Origin: Bolinopsis microptera
Taxonomy: Eukaryota; Ctenophora; Tentaculata; Lobata; Bolinopsidae
Direction: 5' to 3'
Length of the DNA stretch: 64,000 nt
Assembly: GCF_026151205.1 (NCBI RefSeq)
Contig: NC_087082.1
Span: 3,810,001-3,874,000 of the forward strand
Shown in pieces: positions 14,475 through 42,485 of this stretch (its first letter is position 1; each line of letters starts with the position of its first letter). The notes beneath the pieces were generated by a model, which searched no databases, had not been told where the DNA came from, and worked only from the letters and a program-made list of their open reading frames with translations. Made by a program: the position numbers and the translations under genes.

Positions 14475-14850
14475 TATAGACGCTTTGGCAGTCAGTTGTA
14501 GCCTACATTTAAGTGTCCGTAGATTCAAAAGTATAAAAGATACAGTCATTTCGAACCACAGGTTTTAAAGATAATTGTTTATACTTTAGTTTACATTATA
14601 TCGAAAAATAATTTATCGTCATCATCATCACTTGATGACGTCATCAATTTAAGTGTTTTTAAAACTTGATTTTTGACAAAATAACAACTTTTCAAATCGA
14701 TTTTACACTATTAAAAAGTAATTTTATTCAAAATCTGAGGACATTTCTACCTTAGATAATATTTCAAGCATTCTGAAAATCTACCGGAAAAGTTTCCTAC
14801 CTTACTCCTTCATAAAAATATTCGCTATTGAAGTTAGTGCTTTTTTTCCC
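14475..14850. repeat. Right arm of the long foldback, part of R
   Basis: Reverse complement of 12718-13062 over more than 300 bp. Its outer edge coincides with gtgcttttttt, after which a foreign segment interrupts R until 15328. Together the arms could form a stem of over 300 bp with a loop of about 1.4 kb. Confidence 0.75.
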
Positions 14851-17236: not shown

Positions 17237-19714
17237 ATGGAGAAGATCAAGTCAGCAATCCTACTGTGTGTTATAATACTCAATAAAACTGTCGGCATAT
17301 CATCAACAAATTCAAACTGTAATACAAGTGAAGACGGAAAAGGGCACTTATCTAGAGAAAAAGTGGGAAGGGAAGTGGACGAGAAGGCGGTAAAATCTGT
17401 TTCGCTTTATAAACACCCATTAAGTTTATTCCCTTCCTTTGTAGATCGGTCTAGTTTATATATTTACCCTTCACTGTGTCACAGACTGATTACATCTGGG
17501 AGGTACATGCGCTATAACGATACTGACAGTCGATTTTATCACAAGGACGACGAATTGGATAAAACCTATGATCAAAACATGTCGACAATTTGCCCCATTG
17601 AAATAGATTATTTTAATTTTTACCTGGAATGGAGTGAGATTCTAGTGAATGACACACTATCAGATTTGACAATGGTGGGAGGAGACCTTTACCAATGTGA
17701 AATATTTCAGAGTGAATTATGTAATTCCTACAGTATATGCTCGACTGATGAGTGCAACTGCCGGACCAGAGGAACATACTATCAGTACCAGGTCATGTAC
17801 TGTCCAAGGAGTGACGGAGGGATAGCTTGTATCAGCTTTGCAAATATTTGTGACGGGATAGTTGACTGTGCTGACCAAAGTGATGAGTGCCTTTGTCAGG
17901 ATTCATATGAGTTGTCGTGTCACAAGATACCACAAATAAAACGACTTTGCCTACCCCGAGCCCAGTACTGTTTATATCTACCACAAATAAGAGAATTGGA
18001 CTGCTCAGGCCATCCAGCCGATATTAATTGCACTGACGGAGGTGAAAATTATTATTGCAAAGTAACAAGTGAGCTGGGCGATTGTCTACAAAACTTGAAT
18101 ATACGTAGTCCCGCTGTACTTTCTGGTGGACAAGCGAAGTCAGTTTGTCGTAGTCAGTGTACGAATACAACAGAGTTGAAAAAATGGGAGAAATTTTGTC
18201 AGCATATTGGCTTTATACATTTAGGAATGTCACTTAACTTTGTATTCCAATGTCAAATTGAGAATATGGATGATCCGTTCAAGGAATCATACGCATTATC
18301 TGATATCTGTGATGGTATAATGAATTGCAAAAATAATGCTGATGAGCTTGGTTGTCAGGGACGCTTTTACTGCTCAACAAATGAAACTGTCTCATGGATT
18401 GACGAAAGTAGAGTATGTGATCAAAGGAGAGATTGCACAAATGGGAAAGATGAGTGTGCTGGCTGCATCATGGATGGCTTGGCATCTTCAGAATTCCTGG
18501 TACAATCTATACTCATAACAGTTTTGACAAGTTTTCTAGGACTTAGCACCATAATAATAAATATTGTTGTTGCACTCAAAACCTTACATTCAAGTCAAAA
18601 TTCGAAAGCGGCTCAAATAGACAAACTTTTGCGGCTTCTAATATGCTTTTACGACCTTCTCATGGGAATATATTTGTTACTTATGATGGTTGCAGGAATT
18701 GTGTTGCAGTTCAAGGGTGATTACTGTCAATTTGATGAAGAGTGGCGTGCAAGTTTGCATTGTATGATGCTTGGAATTATATTTTCACTATCTTCTCATG
18801 GATCATTGCTTGTTATTGGCATCATGGGGATAGTGAGATGTATTAAATGTACAATGGGGAGCTCTGTTGAACTGTCTAAAAGAAAGGTTATGATAGTTAC
18901 TGCTGTCGTCTCTCTATTGAACCTGATCCATGCCATTGTACCTACTTTACCTGTTCATCGGATACAAAATGTCTTCCGGACAAGCATAAACCTGGTTGCA
19001 GTTCAAAGAAACCCTTTCATATCGACACAAAAAGGTCCTGACATGATAGAACATGTTCGAAAAATTCACGGCCATTATTTTGAAAACAGTTCATCGACAG
19101 ACATTTCAAAGATTCTGGCCGATCTCAGACATGCTAACATTACCTCTGATGATACAATTTTTGATGTAATTGATATAGGATACTACGGCAACACACCTCT
19201 CTGTATATATAACATCTTTAAGATGCAAAACAGCTATCAATTGTACAAAGTCCTCTATTGCATAGCTGTATCTACTTTACTGATAGTAATTTCAGTAGCA
19301 TACATCATCATTGTCATCGAAGCTAAACGTTCTCGTCGACGAGTTGGCCCAGACAATAATGACAACACAACTCAGTTAGCTCTTAAAGTTTCTCTCATGA
19401 TAATCTCCCAGTTAGTGAGCTGGGTGTCCTTCATGGCTGCTGTCATTCACTTCTCGTGGATCAGTAATAGTCCCCCTCCAGCCAAAACATTTGAAATATT
19501 CGCTCTGGTTGTGATTCCAATCAACAGTCTTCTCAACCCGATATTTTACAGTGGTTTGTATAAAAGTATGACCTCTCTTGTTTGGAGAATATGGAAGAAA
19601 TTAACTCACTCTGTTGATAACGTTGCAACAAACGAAATTGAACTAAATGTCATGGCAAATATTTCGAAAGTAAACGAACAATTAGCTCCTCTGCCAGAAG
19701 ATCAGCCGACTTAA
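17237..19714 (+). CDS. LDLa-repeat rhodopsin-type GPCR, copy 2
   Basis: 825 residues, colinear with copy 1 and differing by scattered substitutions, mostly in the ectodomain (for example RSSLYIYPSLC for GSSLYPSLC, ENYYCK for ENDDYK). Two compensating length changes keep the same total. Signal peptide, three LDLa-like modules, seven membrane segments, long second extracellular loop and NPIFY in TM7 are all retained. No frameshift or stop, so probably functional. The gene lies at the junction where the first 11.8-kb unit starts: its last 770 bp (from about 18944) reappear as the receptor 3 fragment. Confidence 0.9.
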   Translation: MEKIKSAILLCVIILNKTVGISSTNSNCNTSEDGKGHLSREKVGREVDEKAVKSVSLYKHPLSLFPSFVDRSSLYIYPSLCHRLITSGRYMRYNDTDSRFYHKDDELDKTYDQNMSTICPIEIDYFNFYLEWSEILVNDTLSDLTMVGGDLYQCEIFQSELCNSYSICSTDECNCRTRGTYYQYQVMYCPRSDGGIACISFANICDGIVDCADQSDECLCQDSYELSCHKIPQIKRLCLPRAQYCLYLPQIRELDCSGHPADINCTDGGENYYCKVTSELGDCLQNLNIRSPAVLSGGQAKSVCRSQCTNTTELKKWEKFCQHIGFIHLGMSLNFVFQCQIENMDDPFKESYALSDICDGIMNCKNNADELGCQGRFYCSTNETVSWIDESRVCDQRRDCTNGKDECAGCIMDGLASSEFLVQSILITVLTSFLGLSTIIINIVVALKTLHSSQNSKAAQIDKLLRLLICFYDLLMGIYLLLMMVAGIVLQFKGDYCQFDEEWRASLHCMMLGIIFSLSSHGSLLVIGIMGIVRCIKCTMGSSVELSKRKVMIVTAVVSLLNLIHAIVPTLPVHRIQNVFRTSINLVAVQRNPFISTQKGPDMIEHVRKIHGHYFENSSSTDISKILADLRHANITSDDTIFDVIDIGYYGNTPLCIYNIFKMQNSYQLYKVLYCIAVSTLLIVISVAYIIIVIEAKRSRRRVGPDNNDNTTQLALKVSLMIISQLVSWVSFMAAVIHFSWISNSPPPAKTFEIFALVVIPINSLLNPIFYSGLYKSMTSLVWRIWKKLTHSVDNVATNEIELNVMANISKVNEQLAPLPEDQPT

Positions 19715-20865
19715 TCTAAGAAAAAATGCTTTCACCACCTCCCCCAGTCCCCTCTCTACTTCAAGTTATATGCTTAATTATCTGGTCAACCAGACAATGG
19801 ATCAGACAGGAACTGTGTCTCATTTTCAAAAATGAAATTTTGTGATCTTAACGCTATTATAGCTACAATTTCTTTCTTCTTGTACATCCCATATGATTCT
19901 TAATCAAGCAAATAATTGAACGCCTTAATCATGACCGATGTTTTCCCTCCAGTATTACAGATTACAGCATTTGTAGTTTTCATGGGGTAAAAATTAATCA
20001 CATATCATCCTTGATTAGGAAAGAAGCATACTTTATATTTTTGCTATATTTGGGAGTACTGATCAATTTCCGGTTTTTAAAATAAATTTGTTACGCCACT
20101 TTATCACATTGCTGAATGACTAATAATTTTTCAAATTCATTTCGAATCGTGTAATGCAACAGCTTTTTATAATCTTTTAACAGCTCGGTATTATTGTTTT
20201 TTCTCGAGTCAATTGATGATATTTAATTATTTGGGAGTTGGGACGATATGAGAGTCTCCGCTCAGTGTGGCTTCGTTTAAGCCTATTTTGAAGTCTCTAC
20301 AACATTTAGAAATAAAGAGTCAGTTGCGTCGTTGGGTCAATATGGGCGTGGCCCTCCTGGGTTTTCCCCACGGTAAAAAAATGTCTCCAACCGAAAATCG
20401 TTTAATCATACCTTTGGCAAGGAGGAAGGTCTGTGCAAAGTCTTGTGAGTATCTGAAGATTTGCAGATTCGTTTCCATAAATGTCCATAAATGACTGGAC
20501 TAATAGGTTTGTACTTCTGAGTTGAAATAAGGGTGACAAGAGAAACTAAAGTCTAAACGCCCCGAATAGAAGACAAAGAGACTAAATATAACCGGAACCG
20601 GTACATCGGTGACAATTCACCATTATACTGGCTTCCTTTCTCAAGATCAATCATATAAGTACCAGCGGAAAAGGTTTTGCCTTTTGAGTAGATGTCACAC
20701 TTTGTTAGAGAGCTGCCTTTGCAGAAGTGCCAAACATATGGCTTTATCTCTGAGCGTCTTTCTCAGATAGTTAGATGGACGTACCCACCTGAGTCTAGTT
20801 ATTGATATATTCCTGTGGCGAGTATATAACCTTTTTCTCGGTAAATAGACAACCGATCTGGGTCA
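19715..20865. other. Receptor 2 3' flank
   Basis: Shared with the flanks of receptors 1 and 3. It includes 20252-20527, absent from receptor 1's flank, in which a 75-codon plus-strand frame (20267-20494) is identical in the second unit but has no recognisable domain. Positions 20811-20850 are the uninterrupted version of the site filled by the Penelope-like element near receptor 1. Confidence 0.6.
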
Positions 20866-21507
20866 CAGTGCTGGCAAGCACGACCGTTGCATTTATTGTG
20901 GGTATACTATGTTCCCCATTTACTATTATACCCCCTTTACTATTATACCCCCTTTACTATTATACCCCCTTTACTATTATACCCCCTTTGGTACACGTTA
21001 CAAGCCTCTTTTGTGCACGCGAAGCGTGCACTCCGGCCGGAGGCGGCGGCAGGAGTTTTCCAGGCATTAAGACTCATCGGAAGTCGTTCAGCAGATTTAT
21101 TTTTAGTTCAAAACATTCTAATTTGATGTCAAAGATGACAGGAATAAAAAATAGTTATGTTGAGGTTTTTAAGAAATTTGCATAAAATACTCGCCAGCAC
21201 TGTTATACGAAATTCGGTAAAAAACCCAAAATTGCCATATTCAGGTGCCTTAAAAACCATGTTAAAATTGAGTTAGAGATCTGAAATTTTTCAGGCCGTC
21301 TAGACGTTGACCAAATCGACTGCAAAAAAAGTTTCAGGTTTCAGGAGCATCGGGAAATGGGTTTTCTAGAACCCTTGTTTTACGATAGATTGTCGTGATA
21401 CATACATATATATATGTACATATATTCAGGGACATACATATATTCAGGGATAGACGCTTTGCCAGTCAATTGTAGCTTGTATTTAAGTGTCCATAGATTC
21501 AAAAGTA
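20866..21507 (+). repeat. R copy 2, left part, up to the Helitron
   Basis: Begins cacagtgctggcaagca and ends gattcaaaagta at the Helitron boundary. It contains a 17-bp tandem repeat, ctttactattatacccc, about four times at 20918-20990. A small hairpin at about 21013-21030 (gtgcacgcgaagcgtgcac) precedes a GC-rich bit. The copy resumes at 28792 on the far side of the Helitron. Confidence 0.8.
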
Positions 21508-22108
21508 TCAACTTAATAACACCAGAATGTGTGTGTGTGTGTCTGTTCGTGTGTAATTTCCGAACGGTTATACAAAAAAAATGGTAAGAGTTACGGGACT
21601 GGTTTTTTCGGTATAGTGTCGACAAAACTCTGACGAAGCCCATAAGCAAAATTTTTAAAAATCGGCCGGTGGTAAGTGGCTTAATTGATGGTTTTGTACC
21701 ATTAATGCAACATTATGGAGTGAGCCACTAAAATGGCTCACTTTTTCTTCCTCTTCGCTCTCTCTCTCTTCCATTACTGTAGCGTTGGTAATTAGGTTAG
21801 CCCCGCAAGTTATTATTAGGGGTGGAGGCACTGCTTGCGGTCTGTTTCAGAGTGTTTGGACTGTAGAAAGAGTTCATACTTTATTATGAGTGTGTGCTGC
21901 GGAGCTTATAAATTTAAACAAAAATGGAAAGCGGTTCAAGACGGGAGTGATGAGGTGAAATAGTCGTGGTACAGGCTGTACGGAGTACGGACCTTATGGT
22001 CATGGAATGTGGTGCCTAATAATGACTTAATTATCCACGAGAAAGAAGTTAAGTTTGAGTTTCGGCCCATTTCCGCAATATTCACTATCCAGTCTAAGTG
22101 AGAATACT

Positions 22109-22341
22109 ATTCACGTGCAATGATTACAAATACTCCAGCCGAACACAGTCGGGGACAGGGGAGAACTGCAGACCTGTATATATTGTGATGTAATTATTAA
22201 GGGGGTGTGTTGAAAAGGTGCTAAATATTGCTTGATACGTTGATTGAGTTTGCCCCCTTTCTTCAAGATTCTTTAGCCACTCGATGTGGTCCTAATATTC
22301 ACGTGATCAATTCTATCCAATGATTGCAAATACTCCAGCCG
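22109..22341 (+). promoter_or_regulatory. Repeated CACGTG-containing motif in the Helitron leader
   Basis: The sequence attcacgtg, then caatgatt-R-caaatactccagccg, occurs at 22109-22141 and, with a 12-base insert, at 22297-22341, about 100 bp before the ATG. The same pair is present in the other two Helitrons. It may be a promoter element, but function is only inferred from the duplication and position. Confidence 0.4.
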
Positions 22342-22445
22342 CTAGCAGAAATTTGTTTGTAGTTTCACAATTTTCACAGTTGGATTTGTTTCGCTAGCAA
22401 TTTCACGAATTTATCTTTGCCGCTTGATAGATTTATTGCAGGCTA

Positions 22446-25400
22446 ATGCCTGCAGAAAATAACGGCAGGGGTAGGGGAAGAAGACGTCGTGGTAGAACTA
22501 CTTTTAGTTCAGCAGCTAGAAGACGTAATCAACGTCGTGACAGACTAGCTAATGAGGCAGTAGAGGAAGCACAGCAGAGAAGAGAGCAAGACCGGTTGCG
22601 TCACACTCCAGAACCACGTATCACATTTATGATGAGTAGTAGTAATCGAGCTAGAGTTTTAGAAGCTTTGACTGATGTGTCTGATGCAGCCAGAACAGCC
22701 ATGGACGAGAACATCCAAGAGTTTATGACACATCGGAGCTTATATATGTCAGAGGAGCAGATTATAGAGATGGATCGCACAGTGGCCAGACTGAGGGAAT
22801 CACAGGCACGAGCAGAGATGACTCCTGAGCAACGGGCTGCCGCTAATGAGGCCGACAGATTACGGATATCACAGGCACGAGCAGAGATGACTGATGAGCA
22901 ACGGGCTGCTGCTTATGAGGCCGACAGATTACGAACATCACAGGCACGAGCAGAGATGACTGATGAGCAACGGGCTGCCGCCAATGAGGCCAACAGATTA
23001 CGAACATCACAGGCACGAGCAGAGATGACTGATGAGCAACTGGCTGCCGCTAATGAGGCCAACAGATTACAAACATCACAGGCACGAGCAGAGATGACTG
23101 ATGAGGAGAGAGAGGCTGAGAGGGCCCGTAATAGGGCACGCCTTGCTGCTGAAAGAGACAGAGCCCGGAGACAACTTGGTGATGCTGTTGCACGCTCTTG
23201 GCCAGACCAAACTCCTCAACCACTTCTATTGGGGCTACGTGATCGTCCCTGTCCGTACAACTGTAACGCCTTAAGATTTGAAAAGGAACTTAGTGGTGTA
23301 CATGCTAGCTTATGTTGTAATAGGGGTAGGGTTAAACTTGAAGATTGCCAGAAACTTTGTCCGTATCCCGATGAAATGAAATATTTGTTAATGGGTGATC
23401 ATCCTAACAGTAGTAACTTTTTTGAATACATTAGACGATATAATTCAGCTCTCGGATTTGCAAGTTTGGGAGCTAACACCACACCTCCTCCTGGATACGG
23501 ACCGTACTGCTTTAGGATTCATGGTGCTGTTTATCATAGATCTGGCTTATTGCACCCTGAGGCCATTAATGAATCGAGAAGGTACGGTCAGATTTACATC
23601 CTTGAAGGCGATGGAGCATTACAAGCAAGACTGAATAATAATGAAAGTACGTTACGTCATGTCATGTTGCTATTACAGAATAACCTTACTTTATGCAACC
23701 CGTATGCTGCTGCGTACAAGAACCTCAATACGCGTGAGCAAGAGGAGATGCAACTCGCGGGAGTTGAGAACAGAGAGCCTAAAAATATTGGTATGAGATT
23801 TAGTGCAGGTCCTGACAGGAGGAGGTACAATGCTCCAACTCACAATGACGTAGCGGCTGTGTTTGTAGGGGAGGACGGTGTTCCTGGCAAGCAAGAATTT
23901 TATGTTTATCCTAAATCGTCGGATACATTACACAAAATTTGTGGTCCACTGTATAGTATGAGAAGTAGAGATTATCTAACTGAACCGGTTGAGAACGTAA
24001 ATTTAAATGAGCTTCATGAAATGACACCTCCCGGTTTTCCATTACATGACTTACAATTAAAAGTAAATTGTAATGTTAGATTGCTTAAGGGATTAGACAG
24101 TTATCCGGACGTTCCTGTAGGCTCACGTTTAAAAGTTACTGAAGTAAACCAAGTTCACGGGTACATAGTTTGTACCTATGCTGGCCGTTCTTTGACTGTA
24201 AGTAAAACTGATTTCGTAACATCATACCAAAATTCCACAGTCATACGACATCAGTTGCCGGTTAAGTTAGAAACATATTTAGAAAATATTTCGGCACTTA
24301 ATGCTAATTTGGACCCATTAGTCTATCCCATATTGTTCCCGAAAGGTGAGAAAGGCTGGCACTCCGAAATGAAACTAAATGACAAGGCTAGGGTATCACA
24401 AAAGATGTTTTATTCGTATAGGATTGCTTACAGAAATGAGCCTTTCTCGCCATTGCATTTTGGTCGCAAACTCTTTCAACAGTACTGTGTCGATTGTTGG
24501 GTTAGAACCGAGGCCAATAGGTTGAAATATATTAATGACAATCAAACGAAGCTACGTGCTGACCTATATTTTGGCCTCATGGATCACCTTGAAAGTGAAA
24601 ACATTGACCCCGGCCAACAACCGCAGCCTGGCCGTCCCAAAATTCTAGCATCGTCCTTTACAGCCGGGCCACGATATATGAAACAAAACTATGAAGATGC
24701 GATGGCTATGGTGACTGAATACGGGAAACCAGACTTCTTTACCACTTACACATGTAACCCTAAGCACCCTGATATTGACAATAACCTTGGCAATGACCCA
24801 AATAGAAACACACATCGTCCAAAATTAACTGCATCGGATAGGCCCGATGTAGTAGCTGCCGTTTTTAAATTACACTTAGAAGCATTAAAAGTTGATCTTA
24901 AGAAAATGTTTGGTAAACAATTAGCTAACATCCATGTAATAGAATATCAGAAACGTGGCTTGCCTCATGCGCATATCCTTATTTGGTTGGTGAACGAGGC
25001 AAAAGTTAGAACAGTAGAGGAGTTAGATAGCTTGATTAGTGCTGAAATTCCTGATCCTAATGTATTTCCACGATTGCACGAAATAGTAACTTCGTGTATG
25101 CTACACGGCCCTTGCGGTTTGGTGAAACCTAACGCATCATGTATGGAAAATGGTAAATGCACAAAGAAGTTTCCTAAAGATTTCCAAGAGGAAACGGTCA
25201 TGGATGTTAATGGATACCCATTGTATAAACGCCCAAACAACGGTAGGATGGTGATGAAAAATGGTGTACCGCTTGACAATAGATACGTAGTACCGTACTG
25301 TCCTTACTTATCACTGAAGTATAATGCCCACATCAACGTAGAAGCCTGTACATCCATAAAATCTATTAAGTACATTTTCAAGTATGTTTACAAAGGTCAT

Positions 25401-27710
25401 GACTGTGCGAGAATTGAGACAACTGAAAGAGATCCCACCTCTCGGGACGAGATTAAGAAATACATTGATACCAGATACGTGAGTGCACCGGAGAGTGTGT
25501 GGAGACTCAGTGGATTTGATGTGTGCGATAAGAGCCACACTGTTGTGAGATTAGACATACACGAACACCTCCATCAGAGTGTCACTTTTAGAGAGGGTGC
25601 TGATATTGATGGGGTGTTGGAGCGAGATCACAGTACGAAGTTGACAGCTTGGTTTGATTTGAATGAGAGAGATCCTGAGGCACGACAGTATTTGTATAAT
25701 GAGATACCTAAGCACTATAGGTGGGACCAGAAAAACAAGAAGTGGATTAAACGAGTGAAGTCGGGTGCTGCGGTGATAGCAAGAATCTACAGTGTAGGTC
25801 CCAGGCAGCGAGAGAAATTTTACTTGAGAATGTTACTGCTTCATGTGCGCGGTGCGAGGTCGTTTCGTGAGATGAAAGTGTACGATGATGTGAGGTATGA
25901 TACGTATGAGGAGGTGTGTCGTGAGAGAGGTCTGTTAACTGATGACACAGAGTGGAAGAGAACACTGGAGGAAGCGTGTGGGATAGCTACGTGTAGGCAG
26001 ATAAGAGAGCTTTTTGTGACGATATTAGGCTGTTGTGAGCCGAGTAATCCTAGAGAACTGTGGGATGACTTCCAGGAACAGATGTATGAGGACTATGTGA
26101 ATATCCATAATTTACCTCCTGATAGGGCGGTACATTATGCCCTTAGAGACATCAATCATTCACTGCTTGCAAATTACCGTGTTTCTGTCACAACTTTTAA
26201 TATAGACTTACTCGAAAACTGGGAAGATTTGCCCTCACTTGACGAGGCTGAGCACGACTATATAGATGTTGCTGCTGAGGCTGATAGATTTGACACCATG
26301 TATAGTCGACTTAATGATGAACAAAGGTTTATAGTAGATTCAATTATTCACGAACTTACACTGCATGGTTCAGCACCTAGCTCCGACAGGGTACGTGCCT
26401 ATTTCATAGACGCTCCTGGTGGTACCGGTAAAACGTTTGTCTTTAACACTCTTATTGCAAAAGCACTTGCATTGGACCATAAAGTATCCTCTTGTGCCTG
26501 GACCGGGATAGCTGGTAATCTGCTTAGATTCGGCCGCACTGTCCACAGTTTATTCAAGCTTCCAGTCCCAATCCTTGAAACGTCGACTTGCAATATAACA
26601 CCTTCATCAAAGCAAGCTGCTTTTATAAGATCTTTAAGTGTAATCTTTATCGACGAGGCGTCCATGATACCAAAACATGCTCTCTCAGCTATTGATTTAA
26701 TGCTCAGGGACATAACAAACAACACAGTTCCATTTGGAGGTAAACTTTTGCTTTTTGCTGGGGACTTTCGACAAACATTACCGGTTACCCCTAGAGCACA
26801 GCCTGCTGGAATATTGGAAAACTGTATAAACAGATCACCTTTATGGGAGCACATTACTCAATTACAGTTGACACAGAACATGCGTGCGAGGCCTGGAGAG
26901 CGTGAGTTTTGTGAATGGTTGATTAAATTAGGTGATGGGAAACTTAGGTCGGACCTCCCCGATGCTTTACCCAGTCAAATCGATATACCTGATCAATGTA
27001 ACATAACATCCGGTGTAGTAGACGCTATCTATCCTGATTTTAACGTAGATAGATCTAAGAGCATTATATTGACACCGAAAAACGTTGATACACATGTCAT
27101 TAACAGGGACACTTTAGCTAAATTTAAACCTGAGGAACAGAGTAGGTCGTACTTTAGTTCAAATGTATATGTTGAGGATGAGGGTAATGAGGTAAATAAC
27201 ATGTCTGTTGAGTTTCTACACTCTCTAACACCTAGCGGCTTGCCTTTGCATGAACTTGAGCTGAAAATTGGGTGCCCAATCATGCTTCTAAGGAATTTGG
27301 ATGTCAAGAACGGTCTATGTAATGGCACAAGGCTTATTGTTAGGCATTTGGGCGATAGGTGCATAGCAGCGGACATAATATCCGGATCTGAGGCTTCAAT
27401 AGGACGTCAAGTATTGATACCCCGCGTGAAACTGATCACGTCTGATATAACAATACCGTTCAAGTTCCAACGGACCCAGTATCCGGTCCGCCTGGCGTAC
27501 TGCATGACCATCAATAAGAGCCAAGGCCAAACATTCAACAAAGTAGGACTGTATTTACCTCAACCCGTGTTCTCACATGGCCAACTGTATGTAGGCTTTT
27601 CGAGGGGTAAATGTTTTGAAGACATTTATCTGCAATTGAAAAATACTGTATTTCAATACACAACCGAAAATCAGGCAGTTACAGTTAACGTTGTATTCGA
27701 GGTTAAATAG
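22446..27710 (+). CDS. Helitron RepHel protein (rolling-circle initiator plus PIF1-like helicase), copy 1
   Basis: 1754 residues in one exon. The N-terminus is arginine-rich (about 5-35), followed by four to five tandem 23-residue repeats beginning SQARAEMTDEQ (about 119-225), probably helical. A cysteine-rich segment lies at about 268-306. The Rep nuclease core has the HUH motif in YQKRGLPHAHILIWL with H841 and H843, and the tyrosine motif YIFKYVYKGHD at 976-986. The helicase has Walker A PGGTGKT (K1329), Walker B IFIDEASM (D1403, E1404), GDFRQTLPV, and the C-terminal NKSQGQTFNKVG and LYVGFSRGK. It would nick, displace and rejoin the element as a single strand. All active-site residues are intact. 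No OTU, RPA or endonuclease extra domain is visible. Confidence 0.95.
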   Translation: MPAENNGRGRGRRRRGRTTFSSAARRRNQRRDRLANEAVEEAQQRREQDRLRHTPEPRITFMMSSSNRARVLEALTDVSDAARTAMDENIQEFMTHRSLYMSEEQIIEMDRTVARLRESQARAEMTPEQRAAANEADRLRISQARAEMTDEQRAAAYEADRLRTSQARAEMTDEQRAAANEANRLRTSQARAEMTDEQLAAANEANRLQTSQARAEMTDEEREAERARNRARLAAERDRARRQLGDAVARSWPDQTPQPLLLGLRDRPCPYNCNALRFEKELSGVHASLCCNRGRVKLEDCQKLCPYPDEMKYLLMGDHPNSSNFFEYIRRYNSALGFASLGANTTPPPGYGPYCFRIHGAVYHRSGLLHPEAINESRRYGQIYILEGDGALQARLNNNESTLRHVMLLLQNNLTLCNPYAAAYKNLNTREQEEMQLAGVENREPKNIGMRFSAGPDRRRYNAPTHNDVAAVFVGEDGVPGKQEFYVYPKSSDTLHKICGPLYSMRSRDYLTEPVENVNLNELHEMTPPGFPLHDLQLKVNCNVRLLKGLDSYPDVPVGSRLKVTEVNQVHGYIVCTYAGRSLTVSKTDFVTSYQNSTVIRHQLPVKLETYLENISALNANLDPLVYPILFPKGEKGWHSEMKLNDKARVSQKMFYSYRIAYRNEPFSPLHFGRKLFQQYCVDCWVRTEANRLKYINDNQTKLRADLYFGLMDHLESENIDPGQQPQPGRPKILASSFTAGPRYMKQNYEDAMAMVTEYGKPDFFTTYTCNPKHPDIDNNLGNDPNRNTHRPKLTASDRPDVVAAVFKLHLEALKVDLKKMFGKQLANIHVIEYQKRGLPHAHILIWLVNEAKVRTVEELDSLISAEIPDPNVFPRLHEIVTSCMLHGPCGLVKPNASCMENGKCTKKFPKDFQEETVMDVNGYPLYKRPNNGRMVMKNGVPLDNRYVVPYCPYLSLKYNAHINVEACTSIKSIKYIFKYVYKGHDCARIETTERDPTSRDEIKKYIDTRYVSAPESVWRLSGFDVCDKSHTVVRLDIHEHLHQSVTFREGADIDGVLERDHSTKLTAWFDLNERDPEARQYLYNEIPKHYRWDQKNKKWIKRVKSGAAVIARIYSVGPRQREKFYLRMLLLHVRGARSFREMKVYDDVRYDTYEEVCRERGLLTDDTEWKRTLEEACGIATCRQIRELFVTILGCCEPSNPRELWDDFQEQMYEDYVNIHNLPPDRAVHYALRDINHSLLANYRVSVTTFNIDLLENWEDLPSLDEAEHDYIDVAAEADRFDTMYSRLNDEQRFIVDSIIHELTLHGSAPSSDRVRAYFIDAPGGTGKTFVFNTLIAKALALDHKVSSCAWTGIAGNLLRFGRTVHSLFKLPVPILETSTCNITPSSKQAAFIRSLSVIFIDEASMIPKHALSAIDLMLRDITNNTVPFGGKLLLFAGDFRQTLPVTPRAQPAGILENCINRSPLWEHITQLQLTQNMRARPGEREFCEWLIKLGDGKLRSDLPDALPSQIDIPDQCNITSGVVDAIYPDFNVDRSKSIILTPKNVDTHVINRDTLAKFKPEEQSRSYFSSNVYVEDEGNEVNNMSVEFLHSLTPSGLPLHELELKIGCPIMLLRNLDVKNGLCNGTRLIVRHLGDRCIAADIISGSEASIGRQVLIPRVKLITSDITIPFKFQRTQYPVRLAYCMTINKSQGQTFNKVGLYLPQPVFSHGQLYVGFSRGKCFEDIYLQLKNTVFQYTTENQAVTVNVVFEVK

Positions 27711-27742
27711 CTTTTCTCTTTATATGCACTTTTAGCTCATGG

Positions 27743-28037
27743 AATGAGGGGTGACAGTTGCTTTTTGCCAGTTACTCTCATTAATTTTATAACACAGTAG
27801 CAATAAACAGTAGCAAATAACAGTAATTTACTATTATTTATTAACAATTATACAATGAGAGGTGACAGTTGCTTTTTGCCAGTTACTCTCATTAATTCTA
27901 TAACACCGTAGCAATGAACAGTAGCAAATAACAGTAATTTACTATTATATATTTTAACAATTATACAATGAGAGGTGACAGTTGCTTTTTGCCAGTTACT
28001 GATCTCATTAATTTTATAACACAGTAGCAATAAACAG
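27743..28037 (+). repeat. Tandem repeat, about 125-bp unit, in the Helitron tail
   Basis: Two full units and a partial third, each starting near gaggggtgacagttgc or gagaggtgacagttgc and containing tttttgccagttact. The same array follows the gene in the other two Helitrons (39544 and 49930 onward). Minus-strand open frames within it are not credible genes. Confidence 0.8.
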
Positions 28038-28765
28038 TTGAGATTTAACGTCGCAGAACATATTTTGTACCATATTACTGTACCGCATAACTGAGCTATA
28101 AGCTGGAACTGGTGTAGATCCTTGGCTTTCAGAAATAGAATTTGATAAAAGGGGAATTGCAATTCCTGCTTCGTTTCTGTTTCCAAAGCCTATGGTAACT
28201 ATTGGGCTGAGTATCATAAATAAATTTATATATATATCACCGAACTAAAAATGCATGGATGAGATTTATATTTTACTTTTATGTTTGAGACTATTTAAGT
28301 TTGCACCAGAGTTTGCGCCAGAGTTAGCACCAGCCTCAGACTTTGATACAAATTAAACAATTTAATAAACATTTGGTTGGGAGGGGAGGAAGTTGACTGG
28401 AAGGACAGATCAATTTACATACAAAACGACTACTGCTCGAGGAGCACATTCCTTTTAGTGCCACTCAAATTTCGACGAGGCCAGTACGACATAAATTTCA
28501 AATCTACATATGTTTCCTGATTATTTGCATCAAAAATTCGACGATAATTTTTTAAAACAGGCAGGCTAGAAGGAGTGTAAACGACGGCTCAGAATCCCAA
28601 CGGCTGAGACTAATAGTATTTATCTTTCATATAAACCTATATTTTTTGATTTAAGTTAAATACTATTGGATACGTGAGGGCACTCCGAATAAAATTGCTC
28701 ACCTAATGCGGATTTTGACTAAGCGGGTTAATACTCCTACCCTTTTTTAACTGCGGCAGTGAAAT

Positions 28766-28791
28766 CCCGGCCGAAGGCCGGGTTACACTAG
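28766..28791 (+). terminator. Helitron 3' hairpin and CTAG terminus, copy 1
   Basis: A 7-bp perfect stem CCCGGCC/GGCCGGG with a GAA loop, then TTACA and CTAG. This is the transposition terminator that marks the end of rolling-circle copying (known for the family), not a transcription terminator. Identical at 40567-40592 and 50953-50978. Confidence 0.93.
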
Positions 28792-29749
28792 TAAAAGATA
28801 AAGCCATTTCCGACCACAGTTCTTGCAAATAATTGTTTACACTTTAGTTTACATTGTATAAACAAATTATTTGACGTCATGAACACCCCTTGATGACGTC
28901 ATCAAGTTAACCGTTTTTAAAACTTGATTTTTGGCAAAGTAATAACTTTTAAAATTAATTTTAAACCATTAAGGAGTAATTTTATTCAAAATCTGAGGAA
29001 ATTTTTACCTTAGATAATTGTTCAAGCATTCTGAAAATCTACCGGAAAGTTTTTTTAGCTTGCTCCTTCATAAAGATATTCGTCATTGAAGTTTGTGCTT
29101 TTTTGAAGAATTATTTTATAAAAACGTCAATTTTGCGATTTAGTATTCTCTGGTGTTGGGCCATGCCTTGGGTTGTGGAGCTTAGTTCTGCTTCCTATAG
29201 GTATAAATTGTGCATTAGGCTAGTTTTGAAGTTGAAAATCGAAAAGTTGCACGCGTGGGGACACGCCCAAATTGATAGAAAATTTCTAAAATCACTGAAA
29301 ATTTCTGTTTTCGTCATTTTCTGTCAACTTTAGAGTGCCGTTGTGATTACAGTTCTTCTTGGAATACTTTGAAACTTTGCATGCTTATGAAGCTATATAT
29401 AAAACAATTACATTTAAAAATTTACGGCGATTCAATATTGAAGCGCACGCAACGTCCGCTCAAAGTTTGCACGTGCGAAAGGTGAGAATTTTGCTCAGTC
29501 GTGATTTCCAACAAATTCTGCTTTGCCACGACAGTTTAATGTCATTATATATGAATTTAATGCCAACTTGAATGAGTATTAAGTGGCATATTCAGTCAGT
29601 GATCGACCGATTTGCTTCCCTAAACACAAGGAAATGTTTTTAAAGGAAAAATTTCGAAATCGTTGAAACTTCCTCCTTATTAATGAAGATATCAGTTTAT
29701 ATTTCGACTTGATAAAGTACCCTGACATTATAATCAAAAAGAGATGATA
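28792..29749 (+). repeat. R copy 2, right part
   Basis: Resumes taaaagataaagccattt directly after the Helitron and continues through gatgacgtcatcaag and cacgcgtggggacacgccca to the foldback element. Short open frames (29103-29333, 29359-29571) are repeated in the second unit but are broken in R copy 1, so I do not call genes. Confidence 0.75.
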
Positions 29750-30270
29750 TTTTACCAAAACCCATAATCATGGGTAGAGTGGACCGCTGCCAGTGTCTCT
29801 CTTTCCCAAACAAAAGGAAATGATATTAATTTGATTGACCGTTCTCAAATGCAAAATGATACCGAGAATGAAATCGGTCGCTCGCTTTTCCCATTCATTT
29901 ACAATTGTAATAGATTAAGAAGAACTACCCAAAGGCAGCTGTACTCGGCAATCAGCAATGAAGATTCAATAAACTTCAGCTTGTTCAATTAGTAATAACT
30001 ACCACCCTTGTCCCTTACCCCGAAATACTAGGTATCGACCCGAACGCAACCCAAAGAGATTTTTACAGCATCTGATTGACGTAATCAATCGAAACTTATT
30101 TATACAATTTGTAAGCCGTGAATGAATGGGAAAAGCGAGCGACCGATTTCATTCTCGGTATCATTTTGCATTTGAGAACGGTCAATCAAATTAATATCAT
30201 TTCCTTTTGTTTGGGAAAGAGAGACACTGGCAGCGGTCCACTCTACCCATGATTATGGGTTTTGGTAAAA
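29750..30270. repeat. Foldback element with ~149-bp arms
   Basis: Arms about 29750-29898 and 30121-30270 are nearly perfect reverse complements, starting ttttaccaaaacccataatc. The loop of about 220 bp is unique sequence with no gene. Same family as the palindrome at 15980. It repeats at 41551-42071, with partial or split copies at 51999-52400 and 52538-53200. Confidence 0.85.
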
Positions 30271-30298
30271 TAAATAATATAAAAATAAGGTTCTCAAC

Positions 30299-30675
30299 CG
30301 TTCCTACTAAATCGCTCGCCCAAATTTTAAGAAAATTCTTGTGAAAAGGCCCTTTGGGCATGAAAGTGATCGGAATCGGTGTATTTTTGGACGCTGATTC
30401 CGAATCACCCCCCATGACATAGGGTTAAAATGCTTCCCTGGAGAGTTATGGGCAAAAAAACCGTTTTGGTCACGTGACAGGCTAGTAAAATACGAATTCG
30501 ATTGTTTAGGGCTCGTGTTAGGGTTAGGGTTGTGGTAAGGGTTATGGTTAGCTTCGGGGTTATGGTTAGGGTTAGGGTTGGGATAAGGGTTTATGTAAAA
30601 ACCGTTTTGTACGGCTGCAAAACCATAAAAACCAAAGTCACGTGAAATTTTTGGGCGAGCGAATTAGTAAAAGCC
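30299..30675. mobile_element. 377-bp inverted-repeat element with telomere-like core
   Basis: Flanked by the 9-bp direct repeat gttctcaac (30290-30298 and 30676-30684). The inverted ends share tcgctcgcccaaa and similar outer bases. The related locus at 12039-12053 reads gttctcatcagg with no insert, an empty site. The core contains several ttagggttaggg-like tracts (about 30510-30590) plus an 85-bp module also found inside the hAT-like element at about 1731-1815. No coding capacity. An 8-9 bp duplication fits hAT or Mutator superfamilies. Confidence 0.75.
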
Positions 30676-30755
30676 GTTCTCAACAGGTAGTGTGTGGTGA
30701 GGTCAAATCTTTAAATATAAAAAAGGCGCTATTTCAATTCGCTTCGGTCTCGTAT

Positions 30756-31528
30756 ATACTTTACCTGTTCATCAGATACAAAATGTCTTCCGGACAAGCA
30801 TAAACCTGGTTGCAGTTCAAATAAACCCTTTCATATCGACACAAAAAGGTCCTGACATGATAGAACATGTTCGAAAAATTCACGGCCATTATTTTGAAAA
30901 CAGTTCATCGACAGACATTTCAAAGATTCTGGCCGATCTCAGACATGCTAACATTACCTCTGATGATACAATTTTTGATGTAATTGATATAGGATACTAC
31001 GGCAACACACCTCTCTGTATATATAACATCTTTAAGATGCAAAACAGCTATCAATTGTACAAAGTCTTCTATTGCATAGCTGTATCTACTTTACTGATAG
31101 TAATTTCAGTAGCATACATCATCATTGTCATCGAAGCTAAACGTTCTCGTCGACGAGTTGGCCCAGACAATAATGACAACACAACCCAATTGGCTCTTAA
31201 AGTTTCTCTCATGATAATCTCCCAGTTAGTGAGCTGGGTGTCCTTCATGGCTGCTGTCATTCACTTCTCGTGGATCAGTAACAGTCCCCCTCCAGCCAAA
31301 ACATTTGAAATATTCGCTCTGGTTGTGATTCCAATCAACAGTCTTCTCAACCCGATATTTTACAGTGGTTTGTATAAAAGTATGACCTCTCTTGTTTGGA
31401 GAGTATGGAAGAAATTAACTCACTCTGTTGATAACGTTGCAACAAACGAAATTGAACTAAATGTCATGGCAAATATTCCGAATGTAAACGAACAATTAGC
31501 TCCTCTGCCAGAAGATCAGCCGACTTAA
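30756..31528 (+). pseudogene. 3' fragment of LDLa GPCR, copy 3
   Basis: Homology to the receptors begins abruptly at about 30756-30758, at the codon matching residue 570, and runs to the stop. It retains the long second extracellular loop and membrane segments 5-7, but has no signal peptide, LDLa modules or TM1-4. The open frame from its first methionine is 223 codons. One substitution turns the VQRNPF of the full genes into VQINPF. Upstream is gcttcggtctcgtata, which belongs to the end of the preceding 11.8-kb unit, so the fragment was made by the duplication breakpoint. Its tail (WRVWKK, IPNVNEQ) and 3' UTR are closer to receptor 4 than to receptor 2. It cannot encode a working receptor. 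Confidence 0.9.
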
Positions 31529-32667
31529 TCTAAGAAAAAATGCTTTCACCACCTCGCCCAGTCCCCTCTCTACTTCAAGTTATGTGCTTAATTGTCTGGT
31601 CAACCAGACATTGGATCAGTTTCATTTTCAAAAATGAAATTTAGTGATCTAAACGCTATTATAGCTACAATTTCTTTCTTCTGGTACATCCCATATGATT
31701 CTTAATCAAGCAAATAATTGAACGCCTTAATCATGACCGATGTTTTCCCTCCAGTATTACAGATTACAGCATTTGTAGTTTTCATGGGGTAAAAATTAAT
31801 CACATATCATCCTTGATTAGGAAAGAAGCATACTTTATATTTTTGCTATATTTGGGAGTACTGATCAATTTCCGGTTTTTAAAATAAATTTGTTACGCCA
31901 CTTTATCACATTGCTGAATGACTAATAATTTTTCAAATTTATTTCGAATCGTGTAATGCAACAGCTTTTTATAATCTTTTAACAGCTCGGTATTATTGTT
32001 TTTTCTCGAGTCAATTGATGATATTTAATTATTTGGGAGTTGGGACGATATGAGAGTCTCCGCTCAGTGTGGCTTCGTTTAAGCCTATTTTGAAGTCTCT
32101 ACAACATTTAGAAATAAAGAGTCAGTTGCGTCGTTGGGTCAATATGGGCGTGGCCCTCCTGGGTTTTCCCCACGGTAAAAAAATGTCTCCAACCGAAAAT
32201 CGTTTAATCATACCTTTGGCAAGGAGGAAGGTCTGTGCAAAGTCTTGTGAGTATCTGAAGATTTGCAGATTCGTTTCCATAAATGTCCATAAATGACTGG
32301 ACTAATAGGTTTGTACTTCTGAGTTGAAATAAGGGTGACAAGAGAAACTAAAGTCTAAACGCCCCGAATAGAAGACAAAGAGACTAAATATAACCGGAAC
32401 CGGTACATCGGTGACAATTCACCATTATACTGGCTTCCTTTCTCAAGATCAATCATATAAGTACCAGCGGAAAAGGTTTTGCCTTTTGAGTAGATGTCAC
32501 ACTTTGTTAGAGAGCTGCCTTTGCAGAAGTGCCAAACATATGGCTTTATCTCTGAGCGTCTTTCTCAGATAGTTAGATGGACGTACCCACCTGAGTCTAG
32601 TTATTGATATATTCCTGTGGCGAGTATATAACCTTTTTCTCGGTAAATAGACAACCGATCTGGGTCA
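31529..32667. other. Flank of receptor fragment 3
   Basis: Copy of 19715-20865 in the second tandem unit. The first roughly 150 bp resemble the receptor 4 flank more (ccagacattggatcag), and the remainder is almost identical to unit 1. No gene is supported. Confidence 0.6.
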
Positions 32668-33309
32668 CAGTGCTGGCAAGCACGACCGTTGCATTTATTG
32701 TGGGTATACTATGTTCCCCATTTACTATTATACCCCCTTTACTATTATACCCCCTTTACTATTATACCCCCTTTACTATTATACCCCCTTTGGTACACGT
32801 TACAAGCCTCTTTTGTGCACGCGAAGCGTGCACTCCGGCCGGAGGCGGCGGCAGGAGTTTTCCAGGCATTAAGACTCATCGGAAGTCGTTCAGCAGATTT
32901 ATTTTTAGTTCAAAACATTCTAATTTGATGTCAAAGATGACAGGAATAAAAAATAGTTATGTTGAGGTTTTTAAGAAATTTGCATAAAATACTCGCCAGC
33001 ACTGTTATACGAAATTCGGTAAAAAACCCAAAATTGCCATATTCAGGTGCCTTAAAAACCATGTTAAAATTGAGTTAGAGATCTGAAATTTTTCAGGCCG
33101 TCTAGACGTTGACCAAATCGACTGCAAAAAAAGTTTCAGGTTTCAGGAGCATCGGGAAATGGGTTTTCTAGAACCCTTGTTTTACGATAGATTGTCGTGA
33201 TACATACATATATATATGTACATATATTCAGGGACATACATATATTCAGGGATAGACGCTTTGCCAGTCAATTGTAGCTTGTATTTAAGTGTCCATAGAT
33301 TCAAAAGTA
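32668..33309 (+). repeat. R copy 3, left part
   Basis: Virtually identical to 20866-21507, including the 17-bp tandem repeat and gattcaaaagta at the Helitron boundary. This shared junction shows that the Helitron was already present when the unit duplicated. Confidence 0.8.
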
Positions 33310-36300
33310 TCAACTTAATAACACCAGAATGTGTGTGTGTGTGTCTGTTCGTGTGTAATTTCCGAACGGTTATACAAAAAAATGGTAAGAGTTACGGGAC
33401 TGGTTTTTTCGGTATAGTGTCGACAAAACTCTGACGAAGCCCATAAGCAAAATTTTTAAAAATCGGCCGGTGGTAAGTGGCTTAATTGATGGTTTTGTAC
33501 CATTAATGCAACATTATGGAGTGAGCCACTAAAATGGCTCACTTTTTCTTCCTCTTCGCTCTCTCTCTCTTCCATTACTGTAGCGTTGGTAATTAGGTTA
33601 GCCCCGCAAGTTATTATTAGGGGTGGAGGCACTGCTTGCGGTCTGTTTCAGAGTGTTTGGACTGTAGAAAGAGTTCATACTTTATTATGAGTGTGTGCTG
33701 CGGAGCTTATAAATTTAAACAAAAATGGAAAGCGGTTCAAGACGGGAGTGATGAGGTGAAATAGTCGTGGTACAGGCTGTACGGAGTACGGACCTTATGG
33801 TCATGGAATGTGGTGCCTAATAATGACTTAATTATCCACGAGAAAGAAGTTAAGTTTGAGTTTCGGCCCATTTCCGCAATATTCACTATCCAGTCTAAGT
33901 GAGAATACTATTCACGTGCAATGATTACAAATACTCCAGCCGAACACAGTCGGGGACAGGGGAGAACTGCAGACCTGTATATATTGTGATGTAATTATTA
34001 AGGGGGTGTGTTGAAAAGGTGCTAAATATTGCTTGATACGTTGATTGAGTTTGCCCCCTTTCTTCAAGATTCTTTAGCCACTCGATGTGGTCCTAATATT
34101 CACGTGATCAATTCTATCCAATGATTGCAAATACTCCAGCCGCTAGCAGAAATTTGTTTGTAGTTTCACAATTTTCACAGTTGGATTTGTTTCGCTAGCA
34201 ATTTCACGAATTTATCTTTGCCGCTTGATAGATTTATTGCAGGCTAATGCCTGCAGAAAATAACGGCAGGGGTAGGGGAAGAAGACGTCGTGGTAGAACT
34301 ACTTTTAGTTCAGCAGCTAGAAGACGTAATCAACGTCGTGACAGACTAGCTAATGAGGCAGTAGAGGAAGCACAGCAGAGAAGAGAGCAAGACCGGTTGC
34401 GTCACACTCCAGAACCACGTATCACATTTATGATGAGTAGTAGTAATCGAGCTAGAGTTTTAGAAGCTTTGACTGATGTGTCTGATGCAGCCAGAACAGC
34501 CATGGACGAGAACATCCAAGAGTTTATGACACATCGGAGCTTATATATGTCAGAGGAGCAGATTATAGAGATGGATCGCACAGTGGCCAGACTGAGGGAA
34601 TCACAGGCACGAGCAGAGATGACTCCTGAGCAACGGGCTGCCGCTAATGAGGCCGACAGATTACGGATATCACAGGCACGAGCAGAGATGACTGATGAGC
34701 AACGGGCTGCTGCTTATGAGGCCGACAGATTACGAACATCACAGGCACGAGCAGAGATGACTGATGAGCAACGGGCTGCCGCCAATGAGGCCAACAGATT
34801 ACGAACATCACAGGCACGAGCAGAGATGACTGATGAGCAACTGGCTGCCGCTAATGAGGCCAACAGATTACAAACATCACAGGCACGAGCAGAGATGACT
34901 GATGAGGAGAGAGAGGCTGAGAGGGCCCGTAATAGGGCACGCCTTGCTGCTGAAAGAGACAGAGCCCGGAGACAACTTGGTGATGCTGTTGCACGCTCTT
35001 GGCCAGACCAAACTCCTCAACCACTTCTATTGGGGCTACGTGATCGTCCCTGTCCGTACAACTGTAACGCCTTAAGATTTGAAAAGGAACTTAGTGGTGT
35101 ACATGCTAGCTTATGTTGTAATAGGGGTAGGGTTAAACTTGAAGATTGCCAGAAACTTTGTCCGTATCCCGATGAAATGAAATATTTGTTAATGGGTGAT
35201 CATCCTAACAGTAGTAACTTTTTTGAATACATTAGACGATATAATTCAGCTCTCGGATTTGCAAGTTTGGGAGCTAACACCACACCTCCTCCTGGATACG
35301 GACCGTACTGCTTTAGGATTCATGGTGCTGTTTATCATAGATCTGGCTTATTGCACCCTGAGGCCATTAATGAATCGAGAAGGTACGGTCAGATTTACAT
35401 CCTTGAAGGCGATGGAGCATTACAAGCAAGACTGAATAATAATGAAAGTACGTTACGTCATGTCATGTTGCTATTACAGAATAACCTTACTTTATGCAAC
35501 CCGTATGCTGCTGCGTACAAGAACCTCAATACGCGTGAGCAAGAGGAGATGCAACTCGCGGGAGTTGAGAACAGAGAGCCTAAAAATATTGGTATGAGAT
35601 TTAGTGCAGGTCCTGACAGGAGGAGGTACAATGCTCCAACTCACAATGACGTAGCGGCTGTGTTTGTAGGGGAGGACGGTGTTCCTGGCAAGCAAGAATT
35701 TTATGTTTATCCTAAATCGTCGGATACATTACACAAAATTTGTGGTCCACTGTATAGTATGAGAAGTAGAGATTATCTAACTGAACCGGTTGAGAACGTA
35801 AATTTAAATGAGCTTCATGAAATGACACCTCCCGGTTTTCCATTACATGACTTACAATTAAAAGTAAATTGTAATGTTAGATTGCTTAAGGGATTAGACA
35901 GTTATCCGGACGTTCCTGTAGGCTCACGTTTAAAAGTTACTGAAGTAAACCAAGTTCACGGGTACATAGTTTGTACCTATGCTGGCCGTTCTTTGACTGT
36001 AAGTAAAACTGATTTCGTAACATCATACCAAAATTCCACAGTCATACGACATCAGTTGCCGGTTAAGTTAGAAACATATTTAGAAAATATTTCGGCACTT
36101 AATGCTAATTTGGACCCATTAGTCTATCCCATATTGTTCCCGAAAGGTGAGAAAGGCTGGCACTCCGAAATGAAACTAAATGACAAGGCTAGGGTATCAC
36201 AAAAGATGTTTTATTCGTATAGGATTGCTTACAGAAATGAGCCTTTCTCGCCATTGCATTTTGGTCGCAAACTCTTTCAACAGTACTGTGTCGATTGTTG

Positions 36301-39300
36301 GGTTAGAACCGAGGCCAATAGGTTGAAATATATTAATGACAATCAAACGAAGCTACGTGCTGACCTATATTTTGGCCTCATGGATCACCTTGAAAGTGAA
36401 AACATTGACCCCGGCCAACAACCGCAGCCTGGCCGTCCCAAAATTCTAGCATCGTCCTTTACAGCCGGGCCACGATATATGAAACAAAACTATGAAGATG
36501 CGATGGCTATGGTGACTGAATACGGGAAACCAGACTTCTTTACCACTTACACATGTAACCCTAAGCACCCTGATATTGACAATAACCTTGGCAATGACCC
36601 AAATAGAAACACACATCGTCCAAAATTAACTGCATCGGATAGGCCCGATGTAGTAGCTGCCGTTTTTAAATTACACTTAGAAGCATTAAAAGTTGATCTT
36701 AAGAAAATGTTTGGTAAACAATTAGCTAACATCCATGTAATAGAATATCAGAAACGTGGCTTGCCTCATGCGCATATCCTTATTTGGTTGGTGAACGAGG
36801 CAAAAGTTAGAACAGTAGAGGAGTTAGATAGCTTGATTAGTGCTGAAATTCCTGATCCTAATGTATTTCCACGATTGCACGAAATAGTAACTTCGTGTAT
36901 GCTACACGGCCCTTGCGGTTTGGTGAAACCTAACGCATCATGTATGGAAAATGGTAAATGCACAAAGAAGTTTCCTAAAGATTTCCAAGAGGAAACGGTC
37001 ATGGATGTTAATGGATACCCATTGTATAAACGCCCAAACAACGGTAGGATGGTGATGAAAAATGGTGTACCGCTTGACAATAGATACGTAGTACCGTACT
37101 GTCCTTACTTATCACTGAAGTATAATGCCCACATCAACGTAGAAGCCTGTACATCCATAAAATCTATTAAGTACATTTTCAAGTATGTTTACAAAGGTCA
37201 TGACTGTGCGAGAATTGAGACAACTGAAAGAGATCCCACCTCTCGGGACGAGATTAAGAAATACATTGATACCAGATACGTGAGTGCACCGGAGAGTGTG
37301 TGGAGACTCAGTGGATTTGATGTGTGCGATAAGAGCCACACTGTTGTGAGATTAGACATACACGAACACCTCCATCAGAGTGTCACTTTTAGAGAGGGTG
37401 CTGATATTGATGGGGTGTTGGAGCGAGATCACAGTACGAAGTTGACAGCTTGGTTTGATTTGAATGAGAGAGATCCTGAGGCACGACAGTATTTGTATAA
37501 TGAGATACCTAAGCACTATAGGTGGGACCAGAAAAACAAGAAGTGGATTAAACGAGTGAAGTCGGGTGCTGCGGTGATAGCAAGAATCTACAGTGTAGGT
37601 CCCAGGCAGCGAGAGAAATTTTACTTGAGAATGTTACTGCTTCATGTGCGCGGTGCGAGGTCGTTTCGTGAGATGAAAGTGTACGATGATGTGAGGTATG
37701 ATACGTATGAGGAGGTGTGTCGTGAGAGAGGTCTGTTAACTGATGACACAGAGTGGAAGAGAACACTGGAGGAAGCGTGTGGGATAGCTACGTGTAGGCA
37801 GATAAGAGAGCTTTTTGTGACGATATTAGGCTGTTGTGAGCCGAGTAATCCTAGAGAACTGTGGGATGACTTCCAGGAACAGATGTATGAGGACTATGTG
37901 AATATCCATAATTTACCTCCTGATAGGGCGGTACATTATGCCCTTAGAGACATCAATCATTCACTGCTTGCAAATTACCGTGTTTCTGTCACAACTTTTA
38001 ATATAGACTTACTCGAAAACTGGGAAGATTTGCCCTCACTTGACGAGGCTGAGCACGACTATATAGATGTTGCTGCTGAGGCTGATAGATTTGACACCAT
38101 GTATAGTCGACTTAATGATGAACAAAGGTTTATAGTAGATTCAATTATTCACGAACTTACACTGCATGGTTCAGCACCTAGCTCCGACAGGGTACGTGCC
38201 TATTTCATAGACGCTCCTGGTGGTACCGGTAAAACGTTTGTCTTTAACACTCTTATTGCAAAAGCACTTGCATTGGACCATAAAGTATCCTCTTGTGCCT
38301 GGACCGGGATAGCTGGTAATCTGCTTAGATTCGGCCGCACTGTCCACAGTTTATTCAAGCTTCCAGTCCCAATCCTTGAAACGTCGACTTGCAATATAAC
38401 ACCTTCATCAAAGCAAGCTGCTTTTATAAGATCTTTAAGTGTAATCTTTATCGACGAGGCGTCCATGATACCAAAACATGCTCTCTCAGCTATTGATTTA
38501 ATGCTCAGGGACATAACAAACAACACAGTTCCATTTGGAGGTAAACTTTTGCTTTTTGCTGGGGACTTTCGACAAACATTACCGGTTACCCCTAGAGCAC
38601 AGCCTGCTGGAATATTGGAAAACTGTATAAACAGATCACCTTTATGGGAGCACATTACTCAATTACAGTTGACACAGAACATGCGTGCGAGGCCTGGAGA
38701 GCGTGAGTTTTGTGAATGGTTGATTAAATTAGGTGATGGGAAACTTAGGTCGGACCTCCCCGATGCTTTACCCAGTCAAATCGATATACCTGATCAATGT
38801 AACATAACATCCGGTGTAGTAGACGCTATCTATCCTGATTTTAACGTAGATAGATCTAAGAGCATTATATTGACACCGAAAAACGTTGATACACATGTCA
38901 TTAACAGGGACACTTTAGCTAAATTTAAACCTGAGGAACAGAGTAGGTCGTACTTTAGTTCAAATGTATATGTTGAGGATGAGGGTAATGAGGTAAATAA
39001 CATGTCTGTTGAGTTTCTACACTCTCTAACACCTAGCGGCTTGCCTTTGCATGAACTTGAGCTGAAAATTGGGTGCCCAATCATGCTTCTAAGGAATTTG
39101 GATGTCAAGAACGGTCTATGTAATGGCACAAGGCTTATTGTTAGGCATTTGGGCGATAGGTGCATAGCAGCGGACATAATATCCGGATCTGAGGCTTCAA
39201 TAGGACGTCAAGTATTGATACCCCGCGTGAAACTGATCACGTCTGATATAACAATACCGTTCAAGTTCCAACGGACCCAGTATCCGGTCCGCCTGGCGTA

Positions 39301-42071: not shown

Positions 42072-42099
42072 TAAATAATATAAAAATAAGGTTCTCAAC

Positions 42100-42476: not shown

Positions 42477-42485
42477 GTTCTCAAC

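Follow-up and report, generated by a model that had tools for sequence, protein, structure and literature searches.

How a eukaryotic Helitron chooses the places where it inserts is the question raised by the window, the whole 64,000-nucleotide stretch of Bolinopsis microptera DNA analysed here. To our knowledge, bench work has covered few Helitrons, and the window carries a natural, undisrupted one. The original prediction treated this element as single. Copy A is indeed intact, but it is one of three near-identical copies in the window, two of which lie within a tandem duplication:

21508..28791, + strand: Helitron copy A, 7,284 bp, defined by its ends, an empty site and genome copies.
33310..40592, + strand: Helitron copy B, 7,283 bp, with one A fewer in a poly-A run, within the tandem duplication.
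43695..50978, + strand: Helitron copy C, 7,284 bp, 100% identical to A, between a different A and T in another copy of host repeat R.
18943..42559, + strand: tandem duplication with copies A and B, units 18943-30758 and 30757-42559.

Copy A (21508-28791, 7,284 bp) starts with TC, ends with a hairpin followed by CTAG, and sits between host A and T. Its junctions read host ...attcaaaagtA, then TCAACTTAATAAC...CCCGGCCGAAGGCCGGGTTACACTAG, then host Taaaagata. Folded as DNA, the hairpin gave a z-score of -3.12, and 1 of 200 shuffles folded as well. Host repeat R has a paralogous site that lacks the element and reads attcaaaagtataaaaga without interruption, and the joined flanks of A align to it with no gap at the junction. 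A second R copy (L018) is also uninterrupted at A's insertion point.

28766..28782, + strand: 3' hairpin CCCGGCC-GAA-GGCCGGG, a 17-nt palindrome 9 nt before the element end.
14523..14540, + strand: empty paralogue of A's insertion site in host repeat R, identified by sequence and by alignment of the joined flanks.

Exact borders had been claimed from this locus, and they recur: the same two end points were found in independent genome copies, and the fetched derivatives, which might have ended elsewhere, share both. All 20 fetched 5' loci begin with TCAAC, while CTAG closes 17 of the 18 fetched loci in which the 3' end was located (TTAG in the remaining one, L024), with T directly after the 3' end in 18 of 18. 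The claimed insertion between A and T also held at sites outside the window, where the host base before TC was A at 35 of 37 5' sites (c in L034, g in L057) and the host base after the 3' end was T in 36 of 36 flanks, a set that excludes L065 and L077 for their altered ends. In the whole genome, the exact 3' 14-mer CCGGGTTACACTAG occurs 446 times, with T next in 437. The empty site had been placed at 14524-14541; it is an uninterrupted paralogue, gap-free at the junction as proposed, but its position is 14523-14540, one base to the left.

Helitrons normally leave no target duplication. An exception is a 5'-truncated copy on C9 (L043, C9:12332280-12341080, read on the minus strand), which has an exact 28-bp direct repeat on either side (around 4445-4473 and 8502-8529 of the locus), starting precisely at the host T after CTAG. 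This looks like repair synthesis begun at a nick between A and T, or like a staggered nick.

Each of the three window copies has an open reading frame of equal length for a RepHel transposase (34247-39511 in copy B, 44633-49897 in copy C). Pfam matches to this frame were Helitron_like_N (1.2e-52), PIF1 (9.5e-50) and the Pif1 2B domain (1.1e-23); NCBIfam gave weak RecD-type matches alone, all under their cut-offs. The best match among solved structures was Helraiser (PDB 7lcc, 1067 bits), with residues 610-1751 aligned to 358-1491. Zinc-finger-like cysteines, HAH within GLPHAH and YxxxY within KYxFKY are kept relative to Helraiser, whose tyrosines Y727 and Y731 are named in the accessible part of PMC5876387. 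The helicase part has Walker A, the DEA box and the later helicase motifs. For the catalytic motifs, this alignment bears out the earlier statement that all Rep and helicase residues are intact.

22446..27710, + strand: RepHel transposase ORF of copy A, 1,754 aa, from the open reading frame, Pfam and the Helraiser alignment.
24966..24974, + strand: HUH motif H841-A-H843, from the Helraiser alignment, position counted by hand.
25371..25385, + strand: Y2 motif Y976-IFK-Y980, opposite Helraiser Y727/Y731, numbering counted by hand.
26430..26432, + strand: Walker A lysine K1329 of the Pif1-like helicase, from the alignment, position counted by hand.
22799..23105, + strand: tandem repeat with a 69-bp unit in 4.4 copies, translated as a 23-aa N-terminal repeat.
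27743..28038, + strand: tandem repeat with a 111-bp unit in 2.6 copies, downstream of the ORF.

We therefore read the element, with a probability of about 0.96, as an autonomous Helitron of canonical (Helitron1) type that belongs with Helraiser; the exact ends, the open RepHel frame and the paralogous empty site all support the Helitron identity first proposed. Of the features that define Helitron1, the 5' TC and 3' CTRR termini appear as TC and CTAG in the window and genome copies, and the 16-20-bp hairpin near the 3' end is here 17 nt long. Insertion is between A and T without target duplication, the truncated C9 copy being the exception, and RepHel has HUH, two tyrosines and an SF1B/Pif1 helicase. 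Helentrons and Helitron2 elements also encode RepHel, but they are characterised by a target between T and T, an endonuclease domain and asymmetric terminal inverted repeats. Here insertion is between A and T, the termini are TC and CTAG, and there is no endonuclease domain among Pfam matches up to E 0.001, so that assignment to either type is highly improbable. The canonical hairpin distance is quoted as 10-15 bp from the 3' end in the text available of PMC13286980; at 9 nt the hairpin here is one base closer than that range, and Helraiser's is at 11.

The canonical Helitron of the window is thus a known kind of element, unusually complete, and apparently recently active. By its encoded domains, the RepHel HUH/Y2 nuclease would nick the top strand before TC, the Pif1-like helicase would peel the strand off, and the 3' hairpin and CTAG would terminate strand transfer. 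The copy would then be joined into host DNA between A and T without target duplication, perhaps via a circle by analogy with Helraiser.

The three window copies bear on how this element multiplies. C matches A at 7,284 of 7,284 letters, it is inserted into another R copy at a point about 75 bp upstream of that used by A, and the right flanks of A and C are 87% similar. Because the insertion points differ and lie in different R copies, A/B and C are most simply read as separate insertion events, yet A and C are undiverged. If the assembly is right, copy B would have arisen by tandem duplication together with its flanks, and copy C (or A) by transposition. Identity between copies can also be maintained by gene conversion, which weakens it as a sign of recent activity.

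The duplication units, 11.8 kb and 99.69% identical, are joined mid-gene. Self-comparison of the window gave 38 differing alignment columns, unevenly spread. The first 1.2 kb is divergent, with 31 columns (19 substitutions and one 12-base gap) at 18943-20138; the next 8.9 kb has one difference, none falling in 20139-21507 and a single-base gap in the element; and the last 1.8 kb, the right flank, has six. This unevenness suggests gene conversion or haplotype mixing; conversion or a misassembled haplotype could explain why an 8.9-kb stretch is nearly identical between more divergent ends.

The three copies might partly be an assembly artefact, with haplotypes placed in tandem instead of three loci. 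In favour of this, the 11.8 kb common to A and B are 99.7% identical and the joint falls inside a gene. However, C lies in a different paralogue with a right flank that is 87% similar, which leaves at least two real loci if the assembly is right at C. The truncated receptor remnant of B differs from the A unit by the 19 substitutions and 12-base gap within 1.2 kb noted above, although alleles could differ equally. We consider an artefact unlikely. Equally unlikely in our view is that three copies within 30 kb reflect local hopping. A and C are 22 kb apart, and the 37 non-window 5' sites include 2 pairs within 25 kb against 0.12 expected; however, control repeat R clusters alike, with 2 pairs among 37 sites against 0.12 expected (places on C16, on C108 and in the window left out). 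The 36 non-window 3' sites gave 1 pair (0.13 expected), which has one shared flank and looks like duplication, and Helraiser was unclustered around donors in 701 insertions (PMC4778049, text).

A preference for host repeat R as target was considered and rejected. Besides A/B and C, R contained 2 insertions in one set of 20 further 5' sites, 1 in a second set of 17, and 1 of 20 3' flanks, and R itself is abundant (1853 first-look candidates, of which the best 40 were scored). The start of contig C11, examined as an allelic empty site, was also rejected: the 6 kb covered there match the receptor region as a paralogue with rearrangements, and A's R site is absent from them.

The surrounding DNA holds a tandem cluster of receptor-like genes with 7tm_1 matches (window 5266-7743, 17237-19714, 30857-31528 and 53894-56371), two of them with weak LDL-receptor class A matches and one truncated by the tandem duplication; related copies lie at the start of C11. 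Reverse-transcriptase-like frames of other mobile elements occupy 3503-4261 and 8987-11938 on the minus strand.

To describe the family across the genome, we used two coding probes. A 401-bp piece of the ORF matched 6 places, of which the window accounts for three, a single C8 copy for two and C9 for one. A 204-aa piece matched 14, adding to the same 6 a further 8 whose identity is at most 64%; some of these have long open frames. Because of these 8 places, further Helitron families exist in the genome, their RepHel loci being 64% and about 43% identical. Both ends are present in the C8 copy, which also has an internal duplication and an interrupted frame, and the C9 copy is without its first 3,265 bp. 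In the C8 copy (L030), a piece of the element's own left end lies at the joint of the ORF duplication, about 4790-4940, as if by template switching.

A first look at the ends gave 717 candidates on the 3' side and 1141 on the 5' side; in each case the best 40 were scored. The 20 fetched 5' loci comprised the C8 copy, L022, in which no 3' end was found, and 18 shorter elements (17 measuring 436-881 bp, the other 3.6 kb) with ends as in copy A. Further copies and short derivatives had been anticipated; short ones with the same ends were found, but in an assembly that may be incomplete the two probes detected no undisrupted copies of this family beyond the three in the window. Two side observations concern other 3' ends. 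A satellite with a 29-bp period at C4:15736455-15736741 has a unit that includes the Helitron 3' end and a target-like flank, and two pairs of 3' ends with the same 7,186-bp spacing occur on different chromosomes (C1:5001489/5008675 and C3:1058677/1065863), possibly carried in repeats of another element.

The flanks of these insertions show that family copies tend to land just upstream of a precisely placed ATAA, beyond mere AT-richness. ATAA started at +4 to +10 after CTAG in 28 of 40 3' flanks (the 36 non-window flanks plus A, C, C8 and C9), compared with 6.2% of the 5793 AT sites in the window and with 6 of 40 when the same flanks were read at +34 to +40. Dropping L024, whose flank is another Helitron, left 28 of 39 sites. 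In a held-out test with the prediction fixed beforehand, ATAA was present in 14 of 15 3' matches with previously unread flanks. Genome-wide, 74 of the first 100 listed places, which run from C1 to C3:15.5 Mb, were counted by hand and partly overlap the discovery set, had ATAA, compared with 11 of 100 in a control thirty bases further on. A genome pattern with ATAA at +4 to +10 gave 307 matches and its shifted control 47, where a place with two words counts twice and the C4 satellite supplies 7 of the 47, its contribution to the 307 falling outside the rows listed.

28792..28803, + strand: target-side flank of copy A, with ATAA at +7.

The ATAA excess might simply express a general preference for DNA that is rich in AT and melts easily; such a preference is reported for Helraiser, whose AT-rich bias is strongest on the 3' side (PMC4778049, text). 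The flanks do have raised AT, 0.88 over +1 to +12 against 0.66 at window AT sites; by position, AT was 0.72-1.0 over +1 to +14 downstream and 0.51-0.78 upstream apart from the junction A (window 0.61). However, AT-matched sites between A and T, drawn from fetched DNA with element copies included, had ATAA in 9.0 +- 2.6 of 39 (about 23%), with a maximum of 18 in 2000 draws, and composition-shuffled flanks in 10.5 +- 2.6 of 39, with 0 of 5000 reaching the observed 28. Word starts also peak sharply: among the 89 words in the 100 places listed, 45 were at +8 and 72 at +7 to +9. We therefore regard general AT preference as a quite unlikely explanation and retain a placed word.

The 446 exact 14-mer places thus amount to a genome-wide footprint of target choice by a natural undisrupted Helitron, and they turn target choice by a eukaryotic HUH transposase into a question about a single four-base word whose distance is almost fixed. 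Compared with the AT-rich preference as PMC4778049 words it in its text, logos aside, the footprint may be sharper and its downstream word differently positioned. Among the paper titles listed by our literature searches, none dealt with Helitrons of ctenophores or with ATAA as a target word; these searches covered text, mainly of open papers, and such work may be published.

ATAA also occurs in the element itself, at +9 of its 5' end. When the flanks were slid along the left end, identity was highest, at 0.485, after a shift of one base; AT-matched sites gave 0.368 +- 0.020 there, and 0 of 1000 AT-matched draws reached the observed value. There was no excess in register (0.350 against 0.346), and slides of -2 and +2 gave 0.401 and 0.393. 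Because the ATAA flank resembles the left end one base out of register, this suggests that the enzyme may read its target like its own 5' end. Tentatively, and as a possibility that we hold at well below even odds, the nuclease pocket holding A followed by TCAACTTAATAA at the donor also reads A followed by TANNNNTATAA in the host, so that existing 5' ends would be preferred targets. If true, head-to-tail arrays would form by self-targeting, beyond rolling-circle concatemers alone. Exact head-to-tail junctions, GTTACACTAG directly followed by TCAMCTTAATA, occur at 10 genome places, and these fit self-targeting and rolling-circle concatemers equally well. Head-to-tail junctions and tandem arrays are known from plants and bats, according to the accessible part of PMC5876387.

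Three known systems bear comparison with this Helitron. The bacterial IS91 and IS200-IS605 transposons share HUH chemistry, and their target resembles the element's own cleavage site. They differ from the present eukaryotic case, in which the hypothesised resemblance is one base out of register. The Xuan-Feng Helitrons of wheat (PMC13286980) are similar in having an autonomous RepHel copy with non-autonomous partners and an AT dinucleotide target; they are plant elements, and the text available, logos aside, names the AT dinucleotide alone as target. Closest is Helraiser/Helibat1 of bats, for which the accessible parts of PMC4778049 and PMC5876387, with PDB 7lcc, describe TC...CTAG ends, a 3' hairpin near the end, insertion at AT, and a RepHel protein with an N-terminal domain, together with the AT-rich bias on the 3' side. 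The host is different, the protein here has 1,754 aa against 1,496 in 7lcc and carries the 23-aa N-terminal repeat, and the present element is a natural copy whereas Helraiser is a reconstruction. Set against Helraiser's text description rather than its logo, the target bias of the Bolinopsis element additionally includes a placed ATAA word.
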